Source of the DNA: Paludibacteraceae bacterium
Lineage (GTDB): Bacteria; Bacteroidota; Bacteroidia; Bacteroidales; Paludibacteraceae
Direction of reading: 5' to 3'
Length of the DNA stretch: 64,000 nt
Assembly (NCBI GenBank): GCA_017394705.1
Contig: JAFPXH010000005.1
Coordinates: 62,001-126,000, forward strand
The position numbers and the translations under genes are program-made. Shown here in pieces: positions 1,078 to 57,984 of this stretch. Within the stretch, counting starts at the first letter, position 1. Each line of letters begins with the position of its first letter. The notes below the pieces were generated by a model that worked only from the letters and a program-made list of their open reading frames with translations, made no database searches and had not been told where the DNA came from.

Positions 1078-4000
1078 TTGATTGACATCCGACGCCCTTT
1101 GAATGTCTGCCGCGCCTCCGCCGGTACGGGGAAGACATATACTCTGGCGGCCTATTATATAGGCCTTCTTCTGTCGGGTGAGGACTATCGCAGTATATTG
1201 GCTATCACGTTCACCAACAAAGCAACGGGTGAGATGAGTGAACGTATATTGGACTACCTGCACGCCATCGCAGAAGGCGAAGGGCAGTCTTTTCTTTTAC
1301 GCGCGCGTGATTTCATGATTCGCAACCAGCAGGCAACGGACGAGGAGTTGCGACTTCGAGCCGGTGAGTGTTTCCGGGCTATGCTGCTGGACTACGACAA
1401 TGTGCAGATACAGACCATCGATTCATTCCTGCAAACCTTATTGGCAGGTTTGGCCGGATTACTGCATACGAGTGCGGGCTTGAGTACAGAGTTAGACGTC
1501 GATCATGTGATACGTCAGGCGGTGGACCAACTGCTGACAACGGACATAACGGATGCCGACCGCACGATATTGGAAGATTACATGCATCTGCAGTTGGACC
1601 GCGAGTCGCATACAGACGTGCGGAAGAGCCTGTGTATGATGGCCAAAGAGTTGTATAATGAGTCTGTACAGATGTTAGATGCGGAGAACAAAATTCTTTT
1701 TGACTCCGCAGCGATAGCAAAGTGCAGGAACCGACTGCTGCAAGCATGGCAGGACTACGAGGGACTGCACGAACTGAAAGTACTATTGGCTTCCTGTAAT
1801 CCGGAGAACTATAACCGAAATACCAAATATGCCTACGACCGCTTAACGCGAAGCGTGGAGCAGCCCGAGAAAATGTCCGGCAAAGACCGTTTCCGCGGGG
1901 TGGAACCGAAGAGTTGTAATGCCGAGGAGATGAACCGCGCCACCGAACTTGCCAAACAAGTGGCACGCTATTATAACTCTATCCAACTGACCATCCGTTT
2001 CAGCCGTGACATGGAACTGATGGCTTCGCTGCAAGCGATTATACAACGCAATCTGGCGGAGAATAACTGCGCGCTCTTGGCGCAGACCGCCAATACCTTA
2101 TGCCGGGCTTTGCAACCCGGCGATGCGGATTTTATCTTGGAGAAAGCAGGTGTGCGCTTCAAACACGTGCTGATGGATGAATTCCAGGATACGAGTCAGT
2201 TACAATGGAGTGTTATTAACCAATTGCTGCGCGATGTGTTGGCCGGAGAAGGACACACGCTGTTAGTGGTGGGAGATATCAAGCAGTCCATATACCGTTG
2301 GCGAAACGGAGATTGGCATATCATGGCAGAGCTGGGCATGGATGACGCGCACTACGGACAGTATATCAACCGCGATTTTGCCCCGCTGACACGTAACTAC
2401 CGTAGTAGCGAAGAGGTGGTGAAATTTAACCTCTCGCTCTTCCGCCATATCATCACCCATTATCCGGTTGAGCACGAACAGGCTTTGATTGAAGCAATCT
2501 ATGATGAGGGATTCACGCCGGAACGCCTGGACGATTTCTATCAGGCGGATAAGAAACGCGGCGGGTATGTGCGCTTCAAGGCTTTCCAGAAGAGTTCGGC
2601 GCGTGAGGAGGGCGCTATACCTATCCGTGAGATGATGGCGTGTGAGATGTTCGATGCGATGGAAGAATTGCTGCAGAAAGGAGCAAGGCCGGCGGATATG
2701 ATGATTCTCGTACGGAAAACAAGTGAGGCGGTCTATATAACCGATTTGCATCGTGAATTGGACAAAGACATATATCCTCTGCTGTCGAAGGCGCGCATCG
2801 TCTCGGCGGATAGTTTTCTATTGGAGGCTTCGCACGACGTGCAGACTATTATTGCCGGGCTGCGAGTAATCGCGAAAGACGATCCCGTAGCGGCGAAGTA
2901 CGTGGAGATGATGACCGGTGATGTAGAGAGCGTGGCGCGTATCAAGAAGAACATCCCTAAAAAAACACCCTTATACGAAGCGGTCAGCGAGTTGATAAAA
3001 TTGCTGCTGGCTAATGAATACGGACGTTATACGGGCACCGAAACGGCATACGTGAATAACCTCTTGGACCGGACGCGCGATTATGTCAGTGCCTATGGCA
3101 GTAATATAGATGAATACCTGGACTATTGGAACGATGTGATGCACGAGAAACCTATTCCTGCGCCGGTGACGGACGCCATCCGTATTCTCACGGTTCACTC
3201 CAGTAAAGGGCTTCAGTCCCAAACGTTGTTTGTGCCTTTCTGTACATGGACCAAGGAGGCGCAGTCCTTGCATCCGGAGAAAATATGGTGCGAGGTGGCG
3301 GATGAGGTGGACGTACAGCGTAAAGACTATGTGCCTATCCAGGACGGCGATGAAATGGCCAACTCCGCTTATCAAGCGGCGTATGAGCTGGAACACCTGA
3401 ATATGCGCGTGGATAACTTGAATATGCTCTACGTAGCCTTGACGCGCGCGGAAGATAATCTGTACATATCTACATTCTATCCCGTGAATAAGGACGGTAA
3501 GATAGGTTCTTGCAACCACGTGGGCATGTATATCCGTGATTTCCTGCAAACGGACGAGTATGAGGTGGGAAAGCCGGTTATTAATGGGGTTAGAGGGTTA
3601 GAGGTTAGAGGGTTAGAGGTTAGTGAGGCGGAACTATGGAGCAGTAGTGACCAAGTGCGTTTCGTTCAGTCGCAGGAAGGCGCCATGTACACGGACTACG
3701 GAGACGAAGCTTATCGCCGCGTGGCACGGATGGAACAGGGAACGCTGTGCCATGAGATTTTCGCGCACTTACGCAAGGCCGATGAATTAGACCGGGTGTT
3801 GGATGATTTCGAGAGTAGAGGAGAGATTCAAAATCCAACGCAGCGGAAAGAGTTGCATCAATTGATTTCTTCGGCGTGGGAAGGAAACCCGCAGATGAAC
3901 AGTTGGTTCACAGACCCGTGGGAATTGAAAATGGAGGAGGCCATTTATATTGACCATCGCGAGGTGCGGCCTGATAGAGTGATGATTAACCCGCAGACGC

Positions 4001-4173
4001 ACGAGGCAATAGTGCTGGATTATAAGTTCGGCCATCCTGAGGCATCGTATAAGGATCAGGTACGTGGTTATATGCAAGCCCTGCAACGTATGGGGTATTC
4101 TCCCGTTCGCGGCTACCTGTGGTTCGCGCATAACGCCCAAGGCAAACAATTGGTAGAAGTGCATGCAGAATAG
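1078..4173 (+). CDS. addA: UvrD/REP-type helicase-nuclease, AddA/RecB-like
   Basis: A 1031-residue superfamily 1A helicase with a C-terminal RecB-like nuclease. Visible motifs in order: Walker A ASAGTGKT close to the N-terminus, motif II LMDEFQDTSQ, motif III GDIKQSIYRWR, motif V TVHSSKGLQ, motif VI YVALTRAEDNLY and the nuclease LDYKFG near residue 980 with a downstream Q-x3-Y. With the next gene it probably resects double-strand breaks for recombination. I chose the TTG at 1078, which gives an N-terminus running straight into the Walker A as in relatives; the ATG at 991 would overlap dnaA by 77 nt. No Shine-Dalgarno sequence is seen. A short repeat tract (3586-3624) encodes a GLEVRGLEV segment before the nuclease domain. 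Confidence 0.9.
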   Translation: MIDIRRPLNVCRASAGTGKTYTLAAYYIGLLLSGEDYRSILAITFTNKATGEMSERILDYLHAIAEGEGQSFLLRARDFMIRNQQATDEELRLRAGECFRAMLLDYDNVQIQTIDSFLQTLLAGLAGLLHTSAGLSTELDVDHVIRQAVDQLLTTDITDADRTILEDYMHLQLDRESHTDVRKSLCMMAKELYNESVQMLDAENKILFDSAAIAKCRNRLLQAWQDYEGLHELKVLLASCNPENYNRNTKYAYDRLTRSVEQPEKMSGKDRFRGVEPKSCNAEEMNRATELAKQVARYYNSIQLTIRFSRDMELMASLQAIIQRNLAENNCALLAQTANTLCRALQPGDADFILEKAGVRFKHVLMDEFQDTSQLQWSVINQLLRDVLAGEGHTLLVVGDIKQSIYRWRNGDWHIMAELGMDDAHYGQYINRDFAPLTRNYRSSEEVVKFNLSLFRHIITHYPVEHEQALIEAIYDEGFTPERLDDFYQADKKRGGYVRFKAFQKSSAREEGAIPIREMMACEMFDAMEELLQKGARPADMMILVRKTSEAVYITDLHRELDKDIYPLLSKARIVSADSFLLEASHDVQTIIAGLRVIAKDDPVAAKYVEMMTGDVESVARIKKNIPKKTPLYEAVSELIKLLLANEYGRYTGTETAYVNNLLDRTRDYVSAYGSNIDEYLDYWNDVMHEKPIPAPVTDAIRILTVHSSKGLQSQTLFVPFCTWTKEAQSLHPEKIWCEVADEVDVQRKDYVPIQDGDEMANSAYQAAYELEHLNMRVDNLNMLYVALTRAEDNLYISTFYPVNKDGKIGSCNHVGMYIRDFLQTDEYEVGKPVINGVRGLEVRGLEVSEAELWSSSDQVRFVQSQEGAMYTDYGDEAYRRVARMEQGTLCHEIFAHLRKADELDRVLDDFESRGEIQNPTQRKELHQLISSAWEGNPQMNSWFTDPWELKMEEAIYIDHREVRPDRVMINPQTHEAIVLDYKFGHPEASYKDQVRGYMQALQRMGYSPVRGYLWFAHNAQGKQLVEVHAE
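3586..3624 (+). repeat. In-frame word repeat (GGTTAGAG) inside addA
   Basis: About five degenerate copies of GGTTAGAG/GGGTTAGA in tandem. They encode a low-complexity GLEVRGLEV-type segment in the linker before the nuclease domain. It resembles, with a different word, the repeats inside dnaE, tsaD and uvrA. Confidence 0.85.
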
Positions 4174-14000: not shown

Positions 14001-14924
14001 CTCCGGTATATCGCTGAATATCTCCGCCATTTCTTCAGGCGTCTTGAGCCACTCCTGCTTGGTGTAGTGCATTCGGTTCACGTCGTTGACGAAGTGGTTC
14101 GTACTCAGACATATCAATCGGTCATGAGCTTCAGCGTCCTCTTCGTTCACAAAGTGACTGTCGTTGGTGGCTATCACTTTGACGCCATACTTACGCGCCA
14201 ACGCAATCAGCACCGGGTTCACTTGTTTCTGGCGTTCATAAACCTCTACATCGGCATCGGGTTTCTGCGTCTCATGACGCTGCAACTCAATGTAATAATC
14301 CTCTCCGAACAAGTTCTTGAACCACTTCACAGTCTCTTCCGCCTCCTTAAAAACACCCTGCTCAATCAGTTCACTAACCCCTAATCCACTAACCTGTAAC
14401 CCGCTAAGTCCTTCCATCACTTTCTGCGGCAATTCGCCTCCCAGGCAGGCAGACGAACAAATAATTCCATCATGGTAGAGTTCCAACAGTTCCCGATCAA
14501 TACGGGGCGTGTAGTAATACGCATCGGACATATAGCCCTGCGACACAATCCGGCATAGGTTATGATACCCTGTCAGGTTCTTCGCCAGCAGGATTAGATG
14601 CCATCCCGAGCGGTCGATATAATACGTACGCCCTTCCGGACTTACCGCTTTGTCTTCCTGACGGGTATGACGCCCGCGACGCGCGCAGTAAGCCTCTACA
14701 CCTACAATGGGTTTGAAAGTCTTATACGGATCATTTTCGCCGGCGGACGATCTGCGTTTCTTGCAGTAGTCCAGCAGTTCCTTAATGCCGTACATGTTTC
14801 CGTGGTCCGTCAACGCCACAGAATGCATGCCCGTTGCGATGCATTTATCGACAATCTCCTCCACTTTGGATAGTCCGTCCAAGAGCGAATAATGCGAGTG
14901 TACATGCAGATGTGTAAATTCCAT
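11064..14924 (-). CDS. dnaE: DNA polymerase III subunit alpha
   Basis: The 1286-residue replicative polymerase. The N-terminal PHP domain begins FTHLHVHSHYSLLDG, the catalytic palm contains PDIDTDF near residue 460 and KMDFLGL further on, and an OB-fold lies near the C-terminus. It is the first gene of a four-gene operon with its own TAnnTTTG promoter. Between PQKVMEG and FKEAEETVKWF (about residues 172-190) there is an extra low-complexity segment built on SGLQVSGLGVSE. It is encoded by a TTAGTGG-type word repeat (14372-14411), and related polymerases as I remember them pass directly from one flank to the other. Confidence 0.97.
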   Translation of the reverse strand: MEFTHLHVHSHYSLLDGLSKVEEIVDKCIATGMHSVALTDHGNMYGIKELLDYCKKRRSSAGENDPYKTFKPIVGVEAYCARRGRHTRQEDKAVSPEGRTYYIDRSGWHLILLAKNLTGYHNLCRIVSQGYMSDAYYYTPRIDRELLELYHDGIICSSACLGGELPQKVMEGLSGLQVSGLGVSELIEQGVFKEAEETVKWFKNLFGEDYYIELQRHETQKPDADVEVYERQKQVNPVLIALARKYGVKVIATNDSHFVNEEDAEAHDRLICLSTNHFVNDVNRMHYTKQEWLKTPEEMAEIFSDIPEALTNTQEIVDKVEVYDIDHGPIMPKFDIPESFGKEEDYPDRLAFESAYLRHLTMEGAKARYGEERLAKDEELKERIEFELNTIISMGFPGYFLIVMDFIRAAREELDVSVGPGRGSAAGSVVAYCLKITDLDPLEYDLLFERFLNPDRISLPDIDTDFEDCGRGKVLDYVSRKYGETHVAHIVTYGKMATKSALADVGRVQQIPLARVNELKGLIPEREFPGNIRDEKGKSPKVNLRNCYKYIDELRQEYESGDPNTRSMLEYAARLEGTIRQVGVHACGVIIGADDLTNFAPLSSVEDKNSKKRVLVTEYDGHVVESVGLIKMDFLGLITLTIIKETLRNIKKSQGIDIDIDHIPIDDEQTYKLFQEGRTVAVFQFESGGMQKYLKELKPTVIGDLIAMNALYRPGPMDYIPQFIKRKQGIEPVTYDIPVMEKYLKDTYGVTVYQEQVMLLSRLLANFTRGESDKLRKAMGKKQMDVLQALKGKFMEGGKANGHSPEVLDKIWRDWEKFASYAFNKSHAACYSWVAYQTGYLKAHYPAEFMAANLTVHKDDIKEVTKLMDECKVLGLSVLEPDVNESELSFTVNNKGAIRFGLGGIKGVGEGAAEAIINEREKNGKYKDIFDFLERVNLQSCNKKTIENLAQAGAFECFEDIYREQFFGTNEYGDTGLELLMNYGNKWQADKEENANSLFGDFLDTAVEVKHPTLPQVPRWDTIERLNREKELIGIYLSAHPLDEYAFEINELCNLTAMELSQFDGWRRPDARAEAERRIKEEQLEQPEEKILLPSEFLAAHKNQAGLFGGLITEAEQLRSQKGNPYGRYTIEDYTGSYQFVLFGSAYQNFAHLMLKDLFVLVTGVVQQKNAGQKWFREAPDEEAEFEFVVQRVDMLNEVQNNRTEGITIQLSLDTLNSELIDELTEQIKANPGPVRLHVSVYNPLNRQSVALTSRSLAVHVSGKFYQWLCMNRQDGTLDFKVITKQ
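14372..14411 (-). repeat. In-frame word repeat inside dnaE
   Basis: On the minus strand this reads as degenerate copies of GGTTAGTGG / GGGGTTAGT. It codes for SGLQVSGLGVSE, an extra loop in the PHP domain of DnaE. The word is nearly the same as in addA (3586-3624). Confidence 0.85.
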
Positions 14925-15002: not shown

Positions 15003-15239
15003 GCGCGTGAACATTTTTTATTTTATTTTCTTGCTTTCTGCTTTTGTTTTTATGAAAAAATACGTCAAAAACAGTATATATACATAGTATATATACTATA
15101 TAAGTGCAAAAAATGCGTTTACTTGCAAAAAAAGGGCTGTTATCTTATGGTTATCTTATGGGTATGTTGTGGGTATCCTATGGTAAGGATAGGGAAAGGA
15201 CTCGTAAAGGACTATTGAACGGCTTGTTTTTGTCCGCTC
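15003..15239. other. Intergenic region between dnaE and tsaD promoters
   Basis: No gene seen. It holds a T-rich stretch, a self-complementary AT run (15073-15103, GTATATATAC-type) and an imperfect repeat of about 10 nt (15141-15186, copies of TTATCTTATGG drifting to GGTATCCTATGG). The same three elements, AT palindrome, word repeat and conserved promoter, recur upstream of the DUF2130 gene at 43.6-43.9 kb. Confidence 0.6.
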
Positions 15240-15392: not shown

Positions 15393-16451
15393 GCGATTGA
15401 GAGCAGTTGTGATGATACATCTGCGGCGGTAATCGTGGATGGTTTGTTACGCAGTAACGTCATCGCGAGTCAGAAAGTGCATGAGGAATATGGCGGAGTG
15501 GTGCCGGAGTTGGCGAGCCGTGCACATCAGCAGAATATATTACCTGTGGTGGATACGGCGCTCAAACGCGCGGGAGTGACGAAAGAGGAACTCTCAGCCA
15601 TCGCTTTTACACGCGGACCGGGCTTGTTGGGTTCGCTTCTTGTCGGTACCTCTTTTGCCAAAGGATTAGCGTTGGCGCTGAATATACCGCTGATTGACGT
15701 GAACCATCTGCAGGGACATGTGTTAGCGCATTTTGTGGAGGATGGCACAGGATTAAACCATCCGTCTTTCCCGTTCTTGTGCCTGCTGGTCAGCGGAGGA
15801 AACAGCCAGATTGTAAAAGTGGAAAGTGGAAAGTGGAAAGAGGAAAGAGGAGAGGGAAGGCATCTTCCTCATATGGAGATTATCGGACAGACAATCGATG
15901 ATGCAGCAGGAGAGGCGTTCGATAAATGCGCCAAAGTGCTGGGCTTGCCTTATCCAGGCGGACCGTGGATAGACAAACTCGCCAAATCCGGAGACCCGAA
16001 GAAATATCCCTTTGCCAAACCGAACATACCGAATTATGACTACTCGTTCTCCGGGCTGAAAACATCGTTCCTTTATACGCTGCGTGACATGCTCAAGGCG
16101 TATGGCGTGGAGACAATTGACGAACTGGCGGAGAAGATACCGAATCTCCGGGAAGATATGTGTGCGTCGCTTCAAGCGACGATAGTAGATATCCTCATGC
16201 GCAAGCTCAAGAAAGCGGCTAAAGATTTGGGAATCAACCAAGTAGCAGTGGCCGGCGGAGTGAGTGCCAACAGTGCCATCCGTCAAGCATTCATCGACTA
16301 TGGTAAGAAATATCATTGGACGGTATATATTCCGCCGTTCAGTTTCACTACCGATAATGCGGCAATGGTTTGTCAGGCCGGTTATTTTAAGTATTTGGAC
16401 CATGATTTTTGTGCAATAGATGAAGTTCCATTTGCTAAAACAACTATTTAA
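15291..16451 (+). CDS. tsaD: tRNA N6-adenosine threonylcarbamoyltransferase TsaD
   Basis: The enzyme that transfers threonylcarbamoyl to A37 of ANN-decoding tRNAs, with TsaB and TsaE. Visible are VILAIESSCDDTSAAVI, the metal-binding H-x3-H in NHLQGHVLAH (H113 and H117 counted from the third ATG), VSGGNSQI and the C-terminal TTDNAAM. The family N-terminus matches the third ATG (15369, 360 residues). The first two ATGs (15291, 15330) would add 26 or 13 residues of the repeat MEKEEAILAKVQS. I give the first ATG because it is the first one after the promoter, but the start is undecided. At about residues 149-164 a word-repeat tract inserts GKWKEERGEGRH between the conserved QIVKVES and IIGQTIDDAAGEA. 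Confidence 0.95.
   Translation: MEKEEAILAKVQSMEKEEAILAKVQSMEKKVVILAIESSCDDTSAAVIVDGLLRSNVIASQKVHEEYGGVVPELASRAHQQNILPVVDTALKRAGVTKEELSAIAFTRGPGLLGSLLVGTSFAKGLALALNIPLIDVNHLQGHVLAHFVEDGTGLNHPSFPFLCLLVSGGNSQIVKVESGKWKEERGEGRHLPHMEIIGQTIDDAAGEAFDKCAKVLGLPYPGGPWIDKLAKSGDPKKYPFAKPNIPNYDYSFSGLKTSFLYTLRDMLKAYGVETIDELAEKIPNLREDMCASLQATIVDILMRKLKKAAKDLGINQVAVAGGVSANSAIRQAFIDYGKKYHWTVYIPPFSFTTDNAAMVCQAGYFKYLDHDFCAIDEVPFAKTTI
15814..15860 (+). repeat. In-frame word repeat (AGTGGAA) inside tsaD
   Basis: Four to five copies of AGTGGAA then AGAGGAA, giving roughly 13 extra residues rich in Lys, Glu, Arg and Gly. The position corresponds to the turn before the conserved GQTIDDAAGEA motif. Confidence 0.85.
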
Positions 16452-16458
16452 GGGACGA

Positions 16459-16490
16459 AGTGACAAAGGACAAAGGACAAAGGATCAAAG
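16459..16490 (+). repeat. Word repeat (GACAAAG) before the exosortase gene
   Basis: Three copies of GACAAAG and one variant, in the 44-nt junction between tsaD and the next gene. A GTG at 16460 would put the tract in frame with the gene; the ATG after it is a better start. Confidence 0.8.
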
Positions 16491-18874: not shown

Positions 18875-20737
18875 TTATTGTTTTTGGATCGTTTCCAACC
18901 AATGGAGCAGAGTAGTCTTAATAGCACTAACGATGCTCCATGTTTTCGATGCTTGTGTAGTGTCGCCTGTCAGGAGGTCCGGCACAGCGTTTCCTGTCTC
19001 CTGTTCAGGATAGACAACCATGTAACTATGGTCGGCAAAAAAGCGCGCGAGCATGTCCGGCACTTGCTCAAAAAGCGGATTGAAGGAAGGCGTGGACGGA
19101 CGTGCGTTAATCATCACAATCATATCGTCTTTGTCCATCTGCTTCGCCATCATAAGCACGTCCTCCCAGTCTTCCATCTCCCGATAAGAGGCACGGAGAT
19201 ACTTGCCCTTACGGCGACAGAAAGCCTGCAAGGCTTTTTGTGTATCCTCATTGGTGAAGAAAATGACCTTGGCGCCAATCTGGCTGCTGAGTCGCCGTAT
19301 AAGTCCGAAGCAGGAGATGAAATCATGCTCTTTCTCTGCATAGCGCGGCACTGCCACCAAAATGCGTGAGATGGTGTTGATAGGCTGTGCAGGATGGTAG
19401 ATAATCGCCGCTTTGGATTGATTATTTACCAGTTTGCGGGCCTCCGTCCAATCGCTCTCGTTGGTAAAATCCGGTTCGTGTAATTCACTTAATTCACTCA
19501 GCTCACGCAGTTCGTAATGCCTGTTCTCTGCCACGGTCATCATCAGCCAACTGTCATCGGTCTTATCTGCCTCAAGGCGCGCACTCTCTTGCAGCGAGAG
19601 CTGTTTGGCGGCATACTCGGTGGCAAAAGAGGCGGAGGTACAAAGTACTAAAATCATGAGCACCGCGGCATTTAATATCTCTGCATCGAAAATACCAATC
19701 TCGAAACCGATGGTCACAATCGCCAGCGTACCGGCCGCAGTCGCATGGGTGAGACCGAAAATGAGCTGTCGTTCCACGCCCTGAAGACGGAAACTGATTT
19801 GTGCCAGCCACGCCGCCAACCATTTGCCCGCCAGTTTGGTAGCAATCATGACGACTGCGATGATAATAGTCGTCCATCCGCTCCAAAGGAGCGATATATC
19901 AATCATCATTCCTACGCCCATCAGGAAAAGCGGGACGAAAAGGTTATTCCCTACAAAATTGATGCGCTGCATAACCGGACTGAGGTTCGGCACCAGTTTA
20001 TTCATCGCAACGCCGCACATGAAGGCTCCTAATATTCCTTCCAAACCCGCCCATTCAGCCATGAAAGCAGAGATCACCATCAGCGTCATGACAATCAGAA
20101 AACCGCTTGTGGCGTCTGACCAACGTTTGAAGAAGCGTTGCGCGAGCCACGGGAAGACGATTGTAATCATGACAAGCGTGAGAATGATTTTCCCCATTAA
20201 CAGCCATGCATTAACCGTCTCCGAGTCATTCAGTTTGCTTTTTACAAACGCAAGCACAAGCAGAGCAAGTGTGATGGAGAGCATTGTTCCGCCTACGGCG
20301 ATGTTCACCGCCGCATTCTTCTGCACGCCGTAACGGCTGACAATGGGGTAGGTCATCAATGTGTGACTGCCGTACATGGCGCCCATCAGCGCACTCGTTG
20401 TCCCGTTGAATCCAAGTAGCAGACTGGTCAAAAAACCTAAACCGAAAGGCACGATAAAAGAGTATATACCGAAAATAACCGCCCTCGTGCGCTGTTGGCG
20501 AAAATCATTGACGTCCACTTCGATACCCGCCTGTAGCATAATATACAACATTCCGATTTTGCCGAGCGCCTGGATAGAAGTGCTGCTGGCCAGCAGATTA
20601 AACCCGAACGGACCGACCAAAATACCCACCAGAATAAAACCCACAATACTGGGAATGCGGATCTTACGGCAAATCATCGGTACCAACAGAATGGTGGCAA
20701 GAACGATGGATATGATGGCTAAGGGGTTGGTAATCAT
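18875..20737 (-). CDS. Cation:proton antiporter, CPA2/Kef type, with USP-like tail
   Basis: A 620-residue protein. The first 380 residues hold 12-13 hydrophobic segments of a CPA2 exchanger (VGFILVGILVGPFGFN early, GAFMCGVAMNKL in the middle). After about residue 390 comes a soluble region resembling a universal-stress-protein fold with AIIYHPAQPINT and RILVAVPRYAEKEHDF. It probably exchanges Na+ or K+ for H+; the ion cannot be read from the sequence. The linker contains RELSELSELHEPDFTNES, encoded by a word repeat (19474-19514). It lies 5 nt upstream of the lipoprotein start and 24 nt after uvrA, so the three may be co-transcribed. Confidence 0.88.
   Translation of the reverse strand: MITNPLAIISIVLATILLVPMICRKIRIPSIVGFILVGILVGPFGFNLLASSTSIQALGKIGMLYIMLQAGIEVDVNDFRQQRTRAVIFGIYSFIVPFGLGFLTSLLLGFNGTTSALMGAMYGSHTLMTYPIVSRYGVQKNAAVNIAVGGTMLSITLALLVLAFVKSKLNDSETVNAWLLMGKIILTLVMITIVFPWLAQRFFKRWSDATSGFLIVMTLMVISAFMAEWAGLEGILGAFMCGVAMNKLVPNLSPVMQRINFVGNNLFVPLFLMGVGMMIDISLLWSGWTTIIIAVVMIATKLAGKWLAAWLAQISFRLQGVERQLIFGLTHATAAGTLAIVTIGFEIGIFDAEILNAAVLMILVLCTSASFATEYAAKQLSLQESARLEADKTDDSWLMMTVAENRHYELRELSELSELHEPDFTNESDWTEARKLVNNQSKAAIIYHPAQPINTISRILVAVPRYAEKEHDFISCFGLIRRLSSQIGAKVIFFTNEDTQKALQAFCRRKGKYLRASYREMEDWEDVLMMAKQMDKDDMIVMINARPSTPSFNPLFEQVPDMLARFFADHSYMVVYPEQETGNAVPDLLTGDTTQASKTWSIVSAIKTTLLHWLETIQKQ
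19474..19514 (-). repeat. In-frame word repeat inside the antiporter linker
   Basis: Degenerate copies of AATTCACTT / AGCTCACGC on the plus strand. They code for ELSELSEL-like residues between the membrane and soluble parts. Confidence 0.6.
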
Positions 20738-20766
20738 ATGTTAGATTTAAGATTTGAGAGTTCAGA
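20738..20766. repeat. Word repeat between uvrA and the antiporter
   Basis: GTTAGATTTAAGATTTGAGA, then TTCAGATAT. It fills the 24-nt junction and covers the uvrA stop codon (20762-20764). Confidence 0.7.
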
Positions 20767-31409: not shown

Positions 31410-32340
31410 TATTCTTTTCTGCTTGCTTGTGATGGCTCAGAGCGCCCAAGCTGCCCTGACCATCACTTCCAACGGAGCAGACATGTCGGATAGTCTCTTG
31501 GCGGCTGTCCGAACGCACGATACGGTTATTTTGGATGGTTCGGCAGGCGAGTTTGTTCTTGGCCATACCGTCGTTCTCAAGCATTTGCAAAACAAGACCA
31601 TCATAGGTGCGCATGACGCCTGTCTGCGTACTCGTTTTCGTTTGACCCCGGCTATCCGGGCCATGCTCGATAGCGCGGATGTGATGAGTTTCTCTACCGG
31701 CGGAGAGGGTGGTGTGCTCTCTAATGGGCAAAAGGTGCGTGAGCAGCGCGAACTAAAGACCAGACAACTATTTATCGACCGTTTTAACGACCCCGAAGAG
31801 TCTTTCCGCGCTTCCGGATGTATCCAGTTATCTCATTGCAGGGATATAATTGTTCGCGGCTTTCATATGCAAGGCCCCGGGGCAATTGATGTGGGAGGCA
31901 ATGACCTCTTGGGCATGGATCATTCCGTCCGTATCTTCATTGATAGTTGTGTCTTCATGGATGGCTTGGACGGCAATCTGGACATCACTTCGCAGTCAGA
32001 TTCGATTACGGTCTCTCATTGCTATTTCGGCTATTCGGAACGCAGTTACGACCACATGAACTCTAATCTTGTCGGCGCTGCAGATAGGGTAGTGGCGGAT
32101 AGGGGCAAACTGCATGTCACCTATTCCTATTGTACATGGGGAGAGGGATGCCGCCAGCGAATGCCAATGGTTCGTTTCGGTACTATTCTTCTGGATCATT
32201 GCCGGTGGGAATGTACTACGGCACACCCGGCAGTAGATGCCCGCAGGGAAGCAAAAGTGGTTGTAGTCCAACCTTCCTTCGGGGAAGGCGTACGGAACCG
32301 ATACCGTTGTGCGGATGATGCCCAATGTATCTTCCGTTGA
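31369..32340 (+). CDS. Secreted pectate-lyase-like (PL1) protein
   Basis: A 323-residue protein. The only start giving a signal peptide is the TTG at 31369 (SILFCLLVMAQSAQA before the mature part), overlapping the aminotransferase gene by 41 nt. The body shows right-handed beta-helix features of polysaccharide lyase family 1: DGLDGNLDIT, SDSITVSHCYF and CRQRMPMVRFGT, in which the Asp and Arg residues correspond to calcium-binding and catalytic positions. It may cleave pectate, but no other pectin genes are nearby. Its 3' end holds a GC-rich palindrome and its stop codon lies within a GACCGAGCGAT-type repeat. Confidence 0.8.
   Translation: MSCVKPLKHIIANSILFCLLVMAQSAQAALTITSNGADMSDSLLAAVRTHDTVILDGSAGEFVLGHTVVLKHLQNKTIIGAHDACLRTRFRLTPAIRAMLDSADVMSFSTGGEGGVLSNGQKVREQRELKTRQLFIDRFNDPEESFRASGCIQLSHCRDIIVRGFHMQGPGAIDVGGNDLLGMDHSVRIFIDSCVFMDGLDGNLDITSQSDSITVSHCYFGYSERSYDHMNSNLVGAADRVVADRGKLHVTYSYCTWGEGCRQRMPMVRFGTILLDHCRWECTTAHPAVDARREAKVVVVQPSFGEGVRNRYRCADDAQCIFR
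32272..32288. repeat. GC-rich palindrome at the end of the pectate-lyase gene
   Basis: CCTTCCTTCGGGGAAGG, coding for QPSFGEG. The same kind as the longer element at 33961. Confidence 0.6.
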
Positions 32341-32372
32341 CCGAGCGATGACCGAGAGACAACCGAGAGAAG
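32338..32372 (+). repeat. 11-nt word repeat (GACCGAGCGAT), left copy
   Basis: Three imperfect 11-nt units, GACCGAGCGAT, GACCGAGAGAC and AACCGAGAGAA, starting in the stop codon of the pectate-lyase gene. A matching tract is at 33838-33872, on the other side of the rhuM gene. Confidence 0.85.
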
Positions 32373-38310: not shown

Positions 38311-38320
38311 TTAGAAGGGA

Positions 38321-38355
38321 CTAGATTACCTAGATTATCTGGATTAACTAGATAG
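38321..38355. repeat. Word repeat (CTAGATTA) near the glyS end
   Basis: CTAGATTAC, CTAGATTAT, CTGGATTAA and CTAGATAG in tandem, ending a few bases before the glyS stop. Confidence 0.8.
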
Positions 38356-43541: not shown

Positions 43542-43867
43542 ATATCTGTGATTTATGTTTACTTTACAAATTCCGATAGTTCCCTCAAAAGTATACCTTT
43601 GCAACGCTCACTAAACCTATTACCTTATTACCTAATACCTCAATAGGGGTTTTTAGCATCTTTTATTATGGTATGAGTGGGTGATTAGTGGGTGATTAGT
43701 GCGTTATTAGTGGGTTGTTACCCCGAGATCACCCTAAGAAAAACGCAAAAAACGCCTCATTTTCCTCAAACAAATACTATATTATATATTTATATATAAT
43801 ATACATCAAAATGTTGACTTCCCTGAACCCTAAACACGAAACGCTAAACGAAAAATCTTCGATTTTA
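43542..43867. other. Intergenic region with word repeats and an orphan promoter-like site
   Basis: No gene seen. It contains TACCTTTG at 43594-43601 with no reading frame behind it, a TTACCTA word repeat (43615-43640), a GTGATTAGTGG word repeat (43672-43724), an AT palindrome (43779-43804) and an AAACACGAAACGCTAAACG stretch (about 43832-43850). Confidence 0.6.
43672..43724 (+). repeat. Word repeat (GGGTGATTAGT)
   Basis: Four degenerate copies, GAGTGGGTGATTA, GTGGGTGATTA, GTGCGTTATTA and GTGGGTTGTTA, period about 11-13 nt. Confidence 0.85.
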
Positions 43868-43923: not shown

Positions 43924-45105
43924 ATGAAAGAATTAAAATGTCCTAAATGCGGAAGCACTTTTACCGTCGATGAGGCGGATTATGCGTTGTTGCTTAGTCA
44001 AGTGAAGAATAGTGAGTTCGAGACCGAGTTGTCCCGTCGTATCCATGAGTTGGAGCAGAGTCAGCAAGCCCGTCTTCAGGCGGAAAAGCAAGCTGACGAG
44101 GCACGTCAGCAGGCAGAGCAGCTACGGCGTGAGCAGCAATTCAATCAGCAGTTGCAGGCTAAGGAACAAACCTTACAGGCTCTTCAGTCTCAAATTGCGG
44201 CGGCTGAGCAGCAGAAACAGTTGGCAGTAGCGCAAGTACGCCAACGTGCGACAGAGGAGTATATGAAGAAAGAGCAAGAACTCAGTTCCCTGCGCACGCA
44301 AATGACCGAGCAACTCAAAGCGCTACAAGAACAGGTGGCGTATTACAAGGATATGAAACTGCGGCTATCGACGAAAATGGTGGGCGAGACGCTTGAACAG
44401 CATTGTGCCACCGAGTTCGCTCGCATCCGGCCGCTTTTCCCCAATGCGTATTTTGAGAAAGACAACGAGGTTATCGAGGGCACCAAAGGCGATTTCGTTT
44501 TTCGCGACAAGAGTGACGACGGAGTGGAGTATATATCCATCATGTTCGAGATGAAGAACGAGAACGACGAGACGGCCACCAAGCATAAGAACGAGGATTT
44601 CCTTGCCAAACTGGACACGGACCGCAAGAAGAAAAACTGTGAATATGCGGTACTCGTCTCGATGCTCGAGCCGGAGAGTGAGCTGTATAACGGCGGTATT
44701 GTGGACATGAATCATCGCTTTGAGAAGATGTATGTCATTCGTCCGCAGTTCTTTGTGCCGCTCATTACGTTACTATGTCAGGCGAATCGTAAGAGTATAG
44801 ACGCCAAACGTGAACTGGCGCTCGTCAAAGCACAGCAAATAGACGTGACCAATTTCGAAGAGAAACTGACAGCTTTTAAAGACGGTTTTGCGCGTAACGT
44901 GCGCTTGGCGAACGAGCGTTTCTCCGATGCTATCGATGAGATAGACAAGACGATTGCCCATCTGACCAAAGTGCGCGAGAATCTTGTCAAGTCCGGCGAT
45001 AACCTCAATGCCGCAGACAAGAAACTGCAGGACGTAACCATCAAACGTCTCACGTACGGAAATCCAACGATGAAGGCGAAGTTTGATGAGTTAGGTAAAG
45101 AATGA
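43924..45105 (+). CDS. DUF2130 domain-containing protein
   Basis: 393 residues. The N-terminal CPKCGS is half of a zinc-ribbon-like element, followed by a Gln/Glu-rich coiled coil of about 120 residues. The DUF2130 core then contains GETLEQHCATEFARIRP, TKGDFVFRD, FEMKNEND and YAVLVSMLEPES; the D-x-V / E-x-K arrangement suggests a restriction-endonuclease-like fold. A second helical region closes it. Function is not established; I would guess a nucleic-acid role. It has a strong promoter and is followed after 19 nt by the carboxyltransferase gene. Confidence 0.85.
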   Translation: MKELKCPKCGSTFTVDEADYALLLSQVKNSEFETELSRRIHELEQSQQARLQAEKQADEARQQAEQLRREQQFNQQLQAKEQTLQALQSQIAAAEQQKQLAVAQVRQRATEEYMKKEQELSSLRTQMTEQLKALQEQVAYYKDMKLRLSTKMVGETLEQHCATEFARIRPLFPNAYFEKDNEVIEGTKGDFVFRDKSDDGVEYISIMFEMKNENDETATKHKNEDFLAKLDTDRKKKNCEYAVLVSMLEPESELYNGGIVDMNHRFEKMYVIRPQFFVPLITLLCQANRKSIDAKRELALVKAQQIDVTNFEEKLTAFKDGFARNVRLANERFSDAIDEIDKTIAHLTKVRENLVKSGDNLNAADKKLQDVTIKRLTYGNPTMKAKFDELGKE

Positions 45106-45130
45106 ATTAATGAATAAATGAAATATGAAG
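45100..45130 (+). repeat. Word repeat (GAATGAATTAAT) across a stop/start junction
   Basis: GAATGAATTAATGAATAAAT then GAAATATGAAG. It includes the DUF2130 stop (45103-45105) and the next ATG (45125). Confidence 0.7.
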
Positions 45131-46762
45131 AAAGAGATTCAATTTAGTCTGGTGTACCGCGATATGTGGCAGAGTAGCGGACGCTACGTGCCGCGCAAGG
45201 ACCAGTTGGCGAAGGTGGCACCGGTGATTATTGACATGGGCTGTTTCGACCGCGTAGAGACGAACGGCGGCGCGAGTGAGCAAGTGAACCTGTTGTATGG
45301 CGAGAACCCGAATCAGGCGGTGCGTACGTTCTGCAAACCGTTCAACGAGGCGGGTATCAAAACGCATATGTTGGACCGTGGTTTGAATGCGTTGCGTATG
45401 AATCCGGTTCCGGCAGATGTGCGCCAGCTGATGTACAAAGTGAAGCACGCGCAAGGAACCGATATCACCCGTATTTTCTGTGGTCTGAATGATCCGCGCA
45501 ATATCATTCCGTCCATCAAATGGGCGAAAGAGGCCGGCATGACTGCCCAAGCAACGATGTGTATCACCTATTCCAAAGTGCACACGGCGGAATATTACAT
45601 CAACCTCGCGGAGCAACTGATTGAAGGCGGAGCACAGGAGATTTGCTTGAAGGATATGGCCGGTATTGGCCGTCCACACACGCTGGGCGTCATTGTGGCT
45701 GCTATCAAAGAGAAACATCCCGATATCATCATCCAGTATCACGGACACACAGGTCCCGGATTTAGTGTGGCATCCATGCTCGAAGTAGCAAAAGCCGGTG
45801 GTGATGTGCTGGACGTAGCGATGGAACCGCTGAGTTGGGGTAAGGTGCATCCGGATGTGATTACTATTCAGGCGATGCTCAAGGACGCAGGCTTCCTGGT
45901 AAAAGATATCAATATGAAGGCATATATGGAGGCACGTAGCCTTACGCAGTCCTTCATCGATGATTTCCTCGGTTATTGGATTGACCCGAAGAACAGCCTC
46001 ATGACATCGCTGCTTGTAGGATGCGGTCTGCCGGGAGGAATGATGGGGTCGCTCATGGCGGATCTTAAAGGCATGCACGCGGCTATTAATGCTAACCTCA
46101 AGAAGAAAGGAGAACCCGAACTCTCCGAGGACGAGTTGTTGGTTCAGCTCTTCGATGAAGTGCAACGTATATGGCCGATGCTCGGAACACCATGTCTCGT
46201 TACGCCGTTTAGCCAGTATGTGAAGAACGCTGCGCTCATGAACTTATTCAGTCGCTCGATGGGCGAGAAAGATTTCACACGCATGGATCCGGCTATGTGG
46301 GGGATGATTCTTGGCAAATCCGGTAAACTGCCGGGTGAGTTGGCTCCGGAGATTATCGAACTTGCCAAGGAGAAAGGCTTTGAGTTCTATACCGATGATC
46401 CGCAGAAACTTTATCCGAACGTCTTGCCGCAGTACATTAAAGAGATGGAAGAACTGGGTTGGGACCGCGGTCAGGATGACGAAGAACTTTTTGAGTTTGC
46501 AATGCACGATAAGCAGTACCGCGAGTATAAGTCCGGTTTGGCTAAAGAGCAATTCAACCAAGATCTCATCGAGCGTATGCGTAAAGCCGGCAAACCGATA
46601 CCGGAAAGTTTGCTGCCGAAACCAGAAGCCGGAGAAGACGATTTGGCTGCTGTGGCAATGGCGTTGCATCTGGCCGGAAAGAAAGCTGTAAGCGCAATCA
46701 AACTGCCGGTTATTCGTCCTACTGCCTGGAATAGCAAGGCTTGGGCAATGAGAAATATTTGA
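45125..46762 (+). CDS. Oxaloacetate decarboxylase alpha-type carboxyltransferase
   Basis: 545 residues. The carboxyltransferase TIM barrel has VYRDMWQSSGRYVP, VETNGGASEQ, MLDRGLNALR, the metal-binding QYHGHTGPG and the carbamoyl-lysine region ICLKDMAGIGRP. It matches the subunit called oxaloacetate decarboxylase alpha or pyruvate carboxylase subunit B in Bacteroides. No biotin attachment motif (MKM) is present, so a separate biotin carrier is needed; none is in the window. The C-terminal 45 residues (EDDLAAVAMALHLAG, then AWNSKAWAMRNI) resemble the tail of the small OadG-type subunit without its membrane helix, perhaps a fusion. Confidence 0.85.
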   Translation: MKKEIQFSLVYRDMWQSSGRYVPRKDQLAKVAPVIIDMGCFDRVETNGGASEQVNLLYGENPNQAVRTFCKPFNEAGIKTHMLDRGLNALRMNPVPADVRQLMYKVKHAQGTDITRIFCGLNDPRNIIPSIKWAKEAGMTAQATMCITYSKVHTAEYYINLAEQLIEGGAQEICLKDMAGIGRPHTLGVIVAAIKEKHPDIIIQYHGHTGPGFSVASMLEVAKAGGDVLDVAMEPLSWGKVHPDVITIQAMLKDAGFLVKDINMKAYMEARSLTQSFIDDFLGYWIDPKNSLMTSLLVGCGLPGGMMGSLMADLKGMHAAINANLKKKGEPELSEDELLVQLFDEVQRIWPMLGTPCLVTPFSQYVKNAALMNLFSRSMGEKDFTRMDPAMWGMILGKSGKLPGELAPEIIELAKEKGFEFYTDDPQKLYPNVLPQYIKEMEELGWDRGQDDEELFEFAMHDKQYREYKSGLAKEQFNQDLIERMRKAGKPIPESLLPKPEAGEDDLAAVAMALHLAGKKAVSAIKLPVIRPTAWNSKAWAMRNI

Positions 46763-48880: not shown

Positions 48881-50208
48881 GAAAAATCGTATTCATCATA
48901 ATAGCTTTCCTCACCCTCCCTTTTGGGAGGGCGGGGGTAGGCTTGCTATACTCCTCTCCTATTGAATGCGTGGGTACAGCGACCCAGGTAGTGAACGGCA
49001 ATGATACCTTGTTCCTCTTCCGCGATGAGATACATCTGCGGACTACCAACGGAGCTGATGCAGTTTGGTATATGACAGATGGCTCAGTCTATACTTCCGG
49101 TGCCAATGAGATTTTCCCGGACGAAGGAGGGTATTATATAGAGCAAGGCGGAGTACGTTCTGCACCGTTTTATGTATTCCTATATCGTGAGCCGACAGAC
49201 CTGCAGTTGGCGATAGAACCAGACTGCGGAACTACTACACTGCGTCTGACCGGAGATCCACTTCCATGGACTTATCAGACTTCCTCGGGTGCACGCGCTT
49301 GCGAGCGCGCCTGTACCATAGATTATATAGCGTTGGCATGGAACGGAGAAACATGGGCGGATTCGGCAGCACAAGTAGAAACCAAACTGCATGCAGGCAG
49401 TTATATTCTTCCGCCTTTATACGCTTCCACGGAGATCACGCTTACTTATGACCAAGCCGTTCGTGCCGCCTTAGGATACCCTCCCGCCAGTATAGTTGTG
49501 CCATTGGAGGAGAAAGATGTGCGTGCAGTGAATATGGAATTGACCTCTATTGCTACTACTCGGGGAAAAGAAGGCGAGAAAAGCAATGAACGAAACCGTC
49601 CGACCAGTCAAAAACTGATTGTGGGCTCAGAGTACAGCGGTCCGCTGGAGGTAGCGATGTATAGTAACCCGACACCCGCTGCGCAGTACTACCGCTGGTC
49701 GATTTACAAGGCTACCGAACGTATAGTGACCCGCAACGATATGGATATCCGTTATACGTTCTCCGAACCGGGGTCGTATAGAGTGGTTTGCTCGGTCAAT
49801 AACTCTTATTGCCAGTCCGACTCAATGGAACTGACAGTAGCTATCGCGGAGTCGTATCTCGCGGTGCCGAATGTGTTCACGCCGGATGGGAATGGTCAGA
49901 ACGATGAGTTCCGTGTGGCATACCGCTCGCTGCGCGAGTTCCATTGCTGGGTGTATAACCGTTGGGGCAAATTGGTCTATGAATGGACAGATCCCGCCAA
50001 AGGGTGGGATGGAACGATTAACGGACGGCCTGCCGCTGAAGGTGCGTATTACTATGTAATACGTGCGTTAGGTACTGACGCGGCCAAAGATGCGCAGTAT
50101 ATAGGTCTGAAAGCTGTCTATCAAAAGAAAAAAGCGGCAGCTGATGAGTCTGTCATTGGCATCTATCAACTATCCGGAGACATCAATCTTTTGCGCAAGA
50201 AACAATAA
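48877..50208 (+). CDS. Surface protein with type B C-terminal sorting domain
   Basis: 443 residues. The signal peptide (MRKIVFIIIAFLTLPFG) is partly encoded by a GC-rich palindrome. The middle is Ig-like/PKD-like (YRWSIYKATER, YTFSEPGSYRVVCSV). The C-terminus has the gliding-motility-associated domain: VPNVFTPDGNGQNDEF, WVYNRWGKLVYEW, GWDGTINGRPAAEGAYYY and GDINLLRK, the signal for export by the type IX secretion system. About 20 extra residues separate GTD from YQLSGDINLLR compared with the usual form. It starts inside the serA stop (ATGA), a surprising partner for serine synthesis genes. Confidence 0.85.
   Translation: MRKIVFIIIAFLTLPFGRAGVGLLYSSPIECVGTATQVVNGNDTLFLFRDEIHLRTTNGADAVWYMTDGSVYTSGANEIFPDEGGYYIEQGGVRSAPFYVFLYREPTDLQLAIEPDCGTTTLRLTGDPLPWTYQTSSGARACERACTIDYIALAWNGETWADSAAQVETKLHAGSYILPPLYASTEITLTYDQAVRAALGYPPASIVVPLEEKDVRAVNMELTSIATTRGKEGEKSNERNRPTSQKLIVGSEYSGPLEVAMYSNPTPAAQYYRWSIYKATERIVTRNDMDIRYTFSEPGSYRVVCSVNNSYCQSDSMELTVAIAESYLAVPNVFTPDGNGQNDEFRVAYRSLREFHCWVYNRWGKLVYEWTDPAKGWDGTINGRPAAEGAYYYVIRALGTDAAKDAQYIGLKAVYQKKKAAADESVIGIYQLSGDINLLRKKQ
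48912..48941. repeat. GC-rich palindrome inside a signal-peptide coding region
   Basis: CCCTCCC-tttt-GGGAGGG (48914-48931), then CGGGGGTAGG, which can pair with the leading CTCACCC. It encodes LTLPFGRAGVG. Confidence 0.7.
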
Positions 50209-50248
50209 ATTATAAATGACCAATTTCAAATGGCAAATCACAAATTAT
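50204..50248 (+). repeat. Word repeat (AAATTATAAATG) across a stop/start junction
   Basis: AATAAATTATAAATGACC then AATTTCAAATGGCAAATCAC and AAATTATT. It includes the previous stop and the ATG of the M3 peptidase, so the first residues (MANHKLF) come from repeat sequence. Confidence 0.75.
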
Positions 50249-54538: not shown

Positions 54539-54566
54539 AGTTATAGTGATTTTAGTTAGTATTCGT

Positions 54567-54604
54567 AATTACGTGATTACGTGATCCCGTGATTCCGTAA
54601 TCAG
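54567..54604. repeat. Word repeat (GTGATTACGTGATT) upstream of clpB
   Basis: CGTAATTAC, GTGATTAC, GTGATCCC, GTGATTCC and GTAATCAG in tandem, period 8 nt. No TAnnTTTG promoter for clpB is visible next to it. Confidence 0.85.
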
Positions 54605-54741: not shown

Positions 54742-55395
54742 ATGAATCGCTATACTCTGGGTAAGATATGTAAATTTTTCTTTCACTGGCACTATGACAT
54801 CCGGGTGACAGGTGAAGAGACGCTTCGTGACGGGTCGGTGCACCTGGTACTGCCTAATCATACGGCTTATATTGATCCGTTGTTATTGTTCAGTGAGATG
54901 TGGTGGCTGCCCATTAGTCCGATGGTGGACGAGTTATTCATGCGCAAGCGTTTTTACCGGCATATCCTGAACAAAGCGGATGCCATCGAGGTTCCGGATT
55001 TGAACAAGAGCGCTATGTCGCGTGAGGAAGGAGTTGCGGCTGCAGGGGCGCTGAGCAGAATAGCAATAGACAGCCTGGCCAAAGGGAAACAACTCTGTTT
55101 CTATCCTTCGGGTCACGTGAAGACGGTGGATAGGGAAGTGATTGGTAACCGGCGGATGGCCTACGAAGTATGCAAAGAGTTGCCAGCGGGCGTGCGCGTA
55201 ATCCTTTGTAGAATGCGCGGGTTGGAGACCAGCCGATGGTCCAAACTCAAACCCAAACAGTGGAAATGGCGCCGCACCGTGACGATGCTCTTTGAAGATC
55301 ATACCGAGGAATTGAGAGAGTGGGCACAGACACTCGACCGAAGAGCCTTTAATGAACAACTCGAGAACTGGTATGATGGAAGGATGAGAGAATGA
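54742..55395 (+). CDS. 1-acyl-glycerol-3-phosphate acyltransferase family protein
   Basis: 217 residues of the PlsC/LPLAT superfamily. The catalytic NHTAYIDP fits NHxxxxD (motif I), and FYPSGHVK is the motif III equivalent (usually FPEGTR). A start further upstream (54619) would translate the promoter, so the ATG at 54742 is chosen. Proteins of this type acylate lysophosphatidate or a related lipid; the divergent motif III leaves the acceptor open. It is a single gene followed by a word-repeat tract. Confidence 0.8.
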   Translation: MNRYTLGKICKFFFHWHYDIRVTGEETLRDGSVHLVLPNHTAYIDPLLLFSEMWWLPISPMVDELFMRKRFYRHILNKADAIEVPDLNKSAMSREEGVAAAGALSRIAIDSLAKGKQLCFYPSGHVKTVDREVIGNRRMAYEVCKELPAGVRVILCRMRGLETSRWSKLKPKQWKWRRTVTMLFEDHTEELREWAQTLDRRAFNEQLENWYDGRMRE

Positions 55396-55425
55396 TGAAA
55401 TGATGGATTGATGGAATGATGCCTA
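55382..55425 (+). repeat. Word repeat (GAATGATG)
   Basis: GAAGGATGA, GAGAATGATGA, AATGATGGATT and GATGGAATGATG. It covers the last codons and the stop of the acyltransferase gene. Confidence 0.8.
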
Positions 55426-56964: not shown

Positions 56965-57957
56965 ATGAAACATCAGAAAGAAGGAAGTCTGCTGTTAGGT
57001 CTGATTGCACTCCTCACAGTAGTCGTTATTGTTGCGCTGGTAGGTGTACTGGCTCTGCGTCCGGAAAAGACGCTTATCCAAGGGGAAGCCGAAGCTGCGG
57101 AATACCGCGTGTCGGGGAAAGTGCCCGGTCGTATAGAGATGTACCTGTACGAAGAGGGCGAGCAGGTAAAAAAAGGCGACACGCTTGTCGTGATTTATTC
57201 GCCGGAAGTGGAAGCCAAGAAAGCCCAGGCGCTTGCAGCCAGAGAGATGGCCGAGGCGGTGAACCAGAAAGCCAAGAACGGCGCCCGCAACGAGCAGATA
57301 CAAGGCGCATACGAACTATACCAGAAAGCCAAAGCGGGCGAGGAGATTTACCGCAAGAGTTTCGAACGTGTGCAACGTCTGTTTGACAAGGGCGTGGTAA
57401 GCGCTCAGAAACGTGATGAGGTGGAAGCGGAATACAAGGCCGCGCAGGCCACTGTCAAAGCCGCCCGCAGCCAATACCAGATGGCACTCTCCGGCGCTCG
57501 CGAAGAGGACAAAGCGGCAGCCGAAGCACAGGTCGCCAGAGTCGATGGTATTCTGCAGGAAGTAGCCGCTGCCGAGGCGGAGAAATACCTGCTGTCACCA
57601 TGCGACGGAGAGGTTTCGGAGCTCTTCCCCAAAGTGGGTGAACTGGTAGGTCAGGGCTCTCCGGTGATGTCCATCGTCGATTTGAACGATGTATGGTTCA
57701 CCTTCGCCGTTCGCGAGGACATGTTGTCCCGTTTTCCGTTGGGCAGCGTGGTAGAGGTTGTGCTTCCTGCGCTTGGCAACAACGTCAAATATCCGCTTAC
57801 GGTCACTCATATCAAGGCGATGGGGACGTACGCCACCTGGCGTTCCACCAAGCAAAACGGCGGATACGATGTCCGCACGTTTGACGTCAAATGCCGTCCG
57901 ACGGCCACCATCCCTAATCTGCGTCCGGGCATGACAGCGCTGGTTATGGAGAATTGA
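56965..57957 (+). CDS. HlyD/EmrA-type membrane fusion protein
   Basis: 330 residues: an N-terminal membrane segment (LLGLIALLTVVVIVALVGVL), lipoyl-like half-motif RVSGKVPGRIEMYLYEEGE, a long Ala/Glu/Lys-rich coiled coil, the second half-motif LSPCDGEVSELFPKVGE and a beta-barrel. It links the inner membrane permeases to the TolC-like channel. It starts 2 nt after the TolC stop; a longer frame starting inside that gene is an artefact. Confidence 0.9.
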   Translation: MKHQKEGSLLLGLIALLTVVVIVALVGVLALRPEKTLIQGEAEAAEYRVSGKVPGRIEMYLYEEGEQVKKGDTLVVIYSPEVEAKKAQALAAREMAEAVNQKAKNGARNEQIQGAYELYQKAKAGEEIYRKSFERVQRLFDKGVVSAQKRDEVEAEYKAAQATVKAARSQYQMALSGAREEDKAAAEAQVARVDGILQEVAAAEAEKYLLSPCDGEVSELFPKVGELVGQGSPVMSIVDLNDVWFTFAVREDMLSRFPLGSVVEVVLPALGNNVKYPLTVTHIKAMGTYATWRSTKQNGGYDVRTFDVKCRPTATIPNLRPGMTALVMEN

Positions 57958-57984
57958 TTTTAGATTTGAGATTTTAGAATTGAT
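57955..57984 (+). repeat. Word repeat (TTTAGATTTGAGAT) across a stop/start junction
   Basis: TTTTAGATTTGAGATTTTAG, then AATTGATG. It includes the HlyD stop and reaches the start of the first permease gene. The same word is present between uvrA and the antiporter (20738-20766). Confidence 0.8.

Follow-up and report, generated by a model that had tools for sequence, protein, structure and literature searches.

Short words repeated in tandem occur at many places, both between genes and inside conserved genes, in a 64,000-nucleotide stretch of DNA from a Paludibacteraceae bacterium (contig JAFPXH010000005.1, positions 62,001 to 126,000; the window). The arrays belong to a known class of simple sequence repeats with 5–11 nt units, and each species keeps its own dialect of words, several of which recur within a genome. 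We favor, at a probability of roughly 0.55, the explanation that a single mutational process acting throughout the genome gave rise to the tracts, combining slippage at microhomologies with copying of words within the genome, and that the tracts are tolerated between genes and in protein loops. The genome holding the window (G000) is represented by 1,196,456 bases in nine contigs and is 71% complete; in TsaD comparisons its closest named relatives are rumen and gut Bacteroidales / Paludibacteraceae assemblies. The comparisons below use a sample of 449,451 bases from G000 (the window plus 20 further stretches), samples from three sister genomes (133 arrays of period 6–16) and a set of 61 genomes of the genus. 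Syntenic loci are at best 77% identical between species over their matched parts, and the intergenic DNA is too diverged to align.

Abundance, unit length and size of the arrays

Tandem Repeats Finder (TRF; period 6–16, score at least 40) reports 16 arrays in the window, whereas 30 dinucleotide shuffles of it average 0.83 and never exceed two. At a score of 30 there are 29 arrays against 8.2 in the shuffles (maximum 14), and chance is therefore expected to supply more than a quarter of the weakest ones. The excess is larger still in the G000 sample, where 151 arrays of period 5–25 compare with 8.7 in shuffles, and the density of 3.05 arrays per 10 kb (137 arrays, period 6–16) is similar to those of the sister genomes (2.56, 2.75 and 2.69 per 10 kb). 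The tracts listed in the earlier note are thus largely real, with TRF recovering tandem-word tracts at 3587, 14372, 15139, 15816, 16453, 21732, 32338, 38320, 43676, 45101, 54564, 55369 and 57956, and shuffled sequence, which that note had named as a control, gives far fewer of them in both the window and the larger sample. Two further sites that it named, at 20738 and 50204, are weak, with a periodicity at lag 7 (p = 0.010 and 0.003 against shuffles of the same 46–51 nt; these and all lag-test p values below are uncorrected) and no TRF call at a score of 30.

Chance, coding periodicity or assembly artefact could account for some of the signal. Lags in multiples of three are raised in all of the Bacteroidales groups, as expected of coding repeats, about eight of the 29 weak window arrays are expected by chance, and an antiporter tract that the earlier note included (20612–20636, TRF score 36) lies in a segment conserved in all nine aligned orthologues and is therefore taken as a chance pattern. 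As a general explanation this is scarcely credible, however, given the excess over shuffles, the recurrence of these periods at loci from numerous genomes that were assembled separately, and the preservation of reading frames by the arrays within genes. The arrays are also over-represented outside of genes, with 84 of the 137 in G000 being intergenic although 90% of the DNA is in open reading frames (ORFs; assigned by a simple longest-ORF rule); for the 7-mers the corresponding number is 20 of 34.

When each place is scored once, at its smallest lag, the largest value for any one lag is that of period 7 in G000 (11.8 per 100 kb, versus 0.9 in shuffles), in the sisters (16.1 versus 0.5) and in the farther relatives (L021–L032), and heptamers are thus the most abundant class. 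There are further peaks at period 8 (5.1 per 100 kb in G000 and 4.2 in the sisters) and at period 11 (6.9 and 5.9), and lesser ones at 14 and 16. Arrays with units of 7, 8 or 11 nt, or of lengths that add these together, are found throughout the genome. Lags 5, 10 and 13 are close to the shuffle level in G000, and lag 10 is slightly raised in the sisters (2.7 versus 1.1 in shuffles). The farther relatives have the peaks at 7, 8 and 11 together with raised values at lag 10 (3.3 versus 0.6) and lag 13 (3.9 versus 1.7). In other Bacteroidales (L033–L088, a group that includes some remaining Paludibacteraceae) lag 7 is lower (5.7 versus 1.7) and there is no excess at lag 11 (1.6 versus 1.9 in shuffles). 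The 7- and 8-mers are C-poor on one strand and many are divided into a purine block and a pyrimidine block (53% of 119 7-mers versus a 30% background, and 59% of 22 8-mers versus 20%); the 11-mers are not of this type.

The lengths of the heptamer arrays are informative in two respects (two sets were used, with some stretches, picked partly near word matches, contributing to array lengths only). First, the arrays mostly end in a partial unit. Among those of at least 21 nt the length modulo 7 is 2–5 for 71% (first set) and 67% (second set), whereas simulated blunt arrays have 2–5 in 25–37% and 0–1 in 54–73%. Second, there is a favored size of about four and a half units. Lengths peak at 30–33 nt, a range that holds 39 of the 143 arrays of the first set and 28 of the 111 of the second, neighboring sizes being rarer (22 and 9 arrays at 23–26 nt, and 14 and 9 at 37–40 nt); the peak is sharp at 31–32 nt in the first set (26 of 143) and broader in the second (10 of 111). 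We considered G-quadruplex formation as its cause, and this does not account for the peak, as four runs of three G are present in none of the 67 arrays of 30–33 nt and in one of the 137 other arrays of 23 nt or more, and the peak persists among arrays without even two-G quadruplex potential (55 arrays at 30–33 nt, versus 30 and 17 at the neighboring sizes).

Words shared within genomes

The earlier note described a word that changes from one site to the next. This is misleading, as GGTTAGN, AAAGTGG, ATTTGTG/AAATGGC, GGGTGATTAC and others recur throughout the genome, although the words at 38320 and 32338 have no 9-mers in common with other sampled arrays. The most over-represented 10-mers of G000 are, besides promoter-like ones, mostly array words, and the sister set has different ones. 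The 270 arrays from the four genomes form 600 pairs with a common 9-mer, of which 377 are within one genome, compared with 201.5 on label shuffling (maximum 261 in 2000).

Individual words are similarly uneven across the 61 genus genomes (overlapping matches within one array were each counted). GGTTAGNGGTTAGNGG has matches in 32 of them, with up to 31 in G063 and 25 in G006, and its reversed pattern matches many genomes, the reversed reading itself being a word. AGGTTNCAGGTTNCAGG matches in seven genomes, with 20 occurrences in each of G017 and G072. GCGGTCTNNCAGCG, from a unit of 16–17 nt, matches in 42 genomes with 79 occurrences in G024 and no more than two per genome for its reversed control; reversed controls are nearly empty also for AGGTTNCAGGTTNCAGG and for the TATCTTATGG word pair described below. 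We note that the 16–17 nt word is present in G000, in G002 and in L017, where it is in the uvrA linker, and is spread through the genus. The 11-mer pattern GGTGATTANNGGGTGATTA matches in 25 genomes (seven for its reversed control). The two free letters of this 11-mer (GGTGATTANNG) agree in 197 of 453 within-genome site pairs and in 395 of 3733 between-genome pairs, and the within-genome agreement exceeds all 2000 label shuffles; the table used has 92 sites in 14 of the 25 genomes (those with at least two sites among the matches listed), with the first unit at each site read by hand.

The sharing of words does not extend to the DNA around them. Among 94 G000 arrays of period 7, 8, 14, 15 or 16 there are 222 distant pairs (i.e. 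in different stretches) with a 9-mer in common, and none of these has similar flanks. A search for shared flanks around the 7/8-type arrays did give 68 alignment rows versus eight in random controls, but these resolve into ten near and three distant site pairs, and none of the three shares words. When each of the 137 G000 arrays is taken with 60 nt around it, 86 pairs from different stretches share at least 16 nt, compared with one for random contexts; these pairs involve 56 arrays, with neighboring arrays counted separately. In 32 of the 86 the shared stretch extends more than 8 nt beyond the array, mostly in the TATCTTATGG element. Long sharing that is confined to the arrays includes 27 nt common to the tsaD array and one at L119 16983, and 25 nt common to the addA array and one at L136 10923.

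The TATCTTATGG family of 11-mers sits in a larger dispersed element with GTATATATAC-type palindromes, of which we have read five copies. In the window four 11-mer units lie between dnaE and tsaD (15139..15184, + strand, called by TRF), and the word pair is present at six places in G000 and in four other genomes. The copies are at 15058–15200 in the window, L119 14806, L120 18390, L122 19239 (– strand) and L138 14090; they are intergenic and contain TATA-type palindromes, a GCGTTTACTTGCAAAAA stretch and four 11-mers, and those in L119 and L120 are exactly identical over more than 100 nt. A 25-nt repeat with AATCGTGCCCTT and GGCTAAGAAA, amid AAATGAC arrays at L127 4208–4600 and L120 18766, is possibly another small dispersed repeat.

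These observations bear on the idea that the words belong to a mobile element or insertion sequence of very small size. Copies are indeed dispersed at many places of one genome and the TATCTTATGG element has shared flanks, but the 7/8-type arrays have no constant sequence beyond the word itself, there are many different words, and the insertions in protein loops also lack a constant sequence; we regard such an element as a very improbable source of the arrays.

Arrays in conserved genes and their likely origin

Several arrays are in frame within addA, dnaE, tsaD and uvrA, as the earlier note proposed, and ortholog alignments place them in variable or inserted loops. In addA a GGTTAGA/GGGTTAGA array of mixed 7- and 8-nt units (3587..3623, + strand; TRF score 72) corresponds to a loop that is different in every aligned orthologue, and four of six AddA loops are tandem (p of 0.036 or less), with those of L090 and L091 not. 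The dnaE array (14372..14407, – strand; TRF score 44) has GGTTAGN words as read on the – strand and gives a 13-residue insertion relative to L015, the sole orthologue available. In tsaD an AAAGTGG array (15816..15858, + strand; TRF score 58) forms a 12-residue loop insertion that is absent from 20 of 22 orthologues and from the best-matching solved TsaD; the other two (L016 and L020) carry different tandem words there, and the three TsaD loops examined for lags are those with an insertion. We also note that about three copies of a 39-bp unit cover the start of tsaD (15276–15394), and as each contains an in-frame ATG the gene has several possible starts. The uvrA gene, on the – strand, has GGTGATT/ATTTG words (as read on the + strand) at 21732..21768 (TRF score 46) in the linker before the second ATPase half. 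This linker is tandem in eight of 11 species (p of 0.022 or less) with lags of 7, 8, 14 or 16 and differing words, and is not tandem in L012, L015 and L021; in L017 it is built of CTGTAAGACCG words that are found elsewhere in G000. A second variable uvrA loop contains GTGAAAAG-type words (22495..22521, – strand; TRF score 33; lag 7, p = 0.007 over 22480–22530). The orthologues examined thus lack the same segments at the addA, dnaE, tsaD and uvrA tracts, whereas the earlier note had considered that widely conserved segments would count against it.

The words in these loops are shared more with arrays of the same genome than with those of its sisters. The addA, dnaE, tsaD and uvrA tracts have 9-mers in common with 9, 12, 4 and 14, respectively, of 136 other arrays of their own genome, but with only 2, 2, 0 and 3 of the 133 sister arrays. 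This supports the proposal of one genome-wide process for coding and non-coding tracts alike. Moreover, the lags in the coding loops are mostly not multiples of three, and the process therefore seems to be blind to the reading frame, with selection keeping what fits.

A simple version of this process can be outlined. An array would arise when the growing strand slips or switches its pairing at a microhomology of 2–5 nt, and the machinery itself would favor a step of 7 or 11 nt; the partial end units and the periods suggest as much. The array would then grow and change by slippage of whole units. Short-patch copying from other arrays of the same genome, by ectopic template switching or conversion, may both seed new arrays and homogenize existing ones to give the species dialect; the dialects, the long shared stretches and the absence of shared flanks all point to such copying. 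Selection would remove arrays elsewhere, leaving those in intergenic DNA, at gene junctions, and in protein loops if their net length is divisible by three, and a cellular role need not be invoked. Slippage or template switching, as suggested in the earlier note, is a plausible cause that agrees both with how the arrays end and with how their words have spread. Loss of mismatch repair was considered and rejected, as mutS1 is matched in 60 of the 61 genus genomes, above the cut-off in 56 and in all 26 of good quality.

Independent local slippage is a simpler possibility, in which each array grew from a local word, a polymerase contact of about 7 nt favors heptamers, and shared words reflect a species bias. 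Local microhomology would account for the partial end units, common word types recur across several species, and at the empty tsaD site of L023 there is AAAGTGGAA, such that the tsaD array could have grown from a local word. It does not readily explain why dialects differ within one genus or why distant arrays share multi-unit stretches (e.g. the 27 nt and 25 nt noted above for tsaD and addA), and a 7-nt contact fails to predict 11. We consider it doubtful as the whole explanation, while taking it seriously.

The L023 word is one of several observations that weigh against the genome-wide process with copying. GCGGTCTNNCAGCG-type words are common to many species (42 of 61), and a species-specific slippage bias could yield shared words without any copying. 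Exact (unmutated) runs have no 32-nt peak, and we thus do not claim that arrays are born at 30–33 nt; birth at 32 nt was entertained and finds no support in the exact-run lengths. The comparison uses one genome per species, and slippage and copying would be events seen through their products rather than as they happen. Finally, the 11-mers are outside of genes in 24 of 27 cases in G000, and with this bias and the 32 of 86 shared stretches that leave the arrays, part of the 11-mers may be something else.

PhoB-type regulators recognize 11-bp repeats, and the 11-mers could be direct repeats spaced by a helical turn for such a regulator, with the G-rich heptamers acting as G-quadruplexes. The intergenic bias of the 11-mers, their frequent occurrence near four units (by eye) and the presence of one family in a larger dispersed element are consistent with this, as is the four-unit preference reported for G-rich heptamers (PMC4692102). 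However, conservation of the 11-mer element upstream of tsaD is not seen by eye in 18 relatives, there are many different words per genome and arrays lie within protein loops, the 30–33 nt arrays lack the four G-runs, and the G-rich strand of the G000 arrays has no clear bias relative to gene orientation. Selected sites of this kind are unlikely for the arrays as a whole; for the 11-mers alone, the intergenic bias and the TATCTTATGG dispersed element make protein binding a fair rival.

A more ambitious form of the process that we prefer is that the genus has a peculiar DNA-synthesis activity, one that lays down words at intervals of 7 (or 8) and 11 nt to make arrays with some four units each and that draws words from other arrays of the genome, with each species keeping and drifting its dialect and writing it into the variable loops of essential proteins. 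We offer this speculatively, as an idea that would probably need revision.

Relation to known repeats and other features of the window

The earlier note knew of no named element of this kind, but the kind itself is a known one. Long simple sequence repeats with 5–11 nt units (LSSR5-11), among which heptamers dominate, were described by Mrazek 2007 as cited in PMC4679880 and PMC4692102, together with the proposal that 7 nt corresponds to a polymerase contact; this idea gives 7 rather than 11 and leaves the step of 11 unaccounted for. The arrays described here resemble the LSSR5-11, as far as those citations characterize them, in having 7-nt tandem words beyond chance and mostly outside of genes, with slippage proposed as the origin, and differ in that 8- and 11-nt units also occur, each genome has several words that recur, dialects exist within a genus, and arrays are present in essential-protein loops.

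Four other heptamer systems can be compared. The GGGNATC heptamers of Xanthomonas and Nostoc have a four-unit preference tied to G-quadruplexes (PMC4692102). They are likewise spread over the genome with about four units favored, but the words here are mostly without G-runs and the size peak persists without quadruplex potential; the GGGNATC word pair GGGNATCGGGNATC matches in two of 218 loci (L029 and L054), neither of them from G000. In L054, a Paludibacteraceae locus, there are seven GGGNATC matches at 10398–11292, some of them within a tsaD match. The TAACTGA direct repeats of Beggiatoaceae, Cyanobacteria and five Bacteroidetes (PMC4679880) are also heptamers at many intergenic places, near start codons and in some instances within ORFs, but represent a single word where there are many here, and the pair TAACTGATAACTGA matches in none of the 218 loci. 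In the P6b loop of the Nostoc tRNA-Leu intron (PMC4476775) heptamer motifs similarly fill a variable loop of a conserved gene with a word class that shifts between lineages; that is an RNA loop whereas these are protein loops, and the words differ. Heptamers also surround small dispersed repeats of Nostoc. The STRR heptamers of Calothrix (cited in PMC4692102), like these, are dispersed heptamer arrays, a likeness of description rather than of letters.

In the open-licence literature searched we found no paper on such arrays in Paludibacteraceae or on dialects, and the combination of several words per genome, species dialects, 7/8-mers with 11-mers and species-specific loop filling seems not to have been met there. 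The arrays bear on the question of why heptamers dominate bacterial tandem repeats, a question made testable by a genus whose arrays number about three per 10 kb, fall into two classes of unit (7/8 and 11), and have a preferred size, partial ends and dialects. They are also a source of new amino-acid sequence in the loops of core proteins, and they separate the four-unit preference from G-quadruplex formation.

The remaining arrays of the window are all given on the + strand. A GGACAAA array (16453..16490; TRF score 53) is immediately 3' of the tsaD stop codon and covers the start of the next ORF, with 9-mers common to none of the 136 other G000 arrays, and the weak site noted above has GATTTGA-type words (20736..20770; lag tested over 20730–20775) between the antiporter start and the end of uvrA. 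Two arrays cover the ends of ORFs: an 11-mer TGACCGAGAGA array (32338..32370; TRF score 45) at the end of ORF 31369–32340, and a TGGAATGA array (55369..55421; TRF score 51) at that of ORF 54619–55395. Three are intergenic, a ACTAGATTA array (38320..38353; TRF score 47) whose word, as noted above, is unshared, an 11-mer AGTGGGTGATT array (43676..43715; TRF score 66) with 9-mers common to nine of 136 other arrays, and a CGTGATTA array (54564..54602; TRF score 50). Stop/start junctions are spanned by an AATGAAT-type array (45101..45133; TRF score 43) between ORFs 43924–45105 and 45125–46762, by the AAATGAC/AAATGGC words of the second weak site (50204..50240; lag tested over 50190–50240), and by a GATTTTAGAATTGA array (57956..57983; TRF score 49) between ORFs 56872–57957 and 57980–59158. 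No known RNA families reach the gathering score within the window. A different type of repetition is present at 34036–38115, where the DNA has 69-bp repeats and encodes a protein of 1359 residues with leucine-rich repeats of the BspA type.

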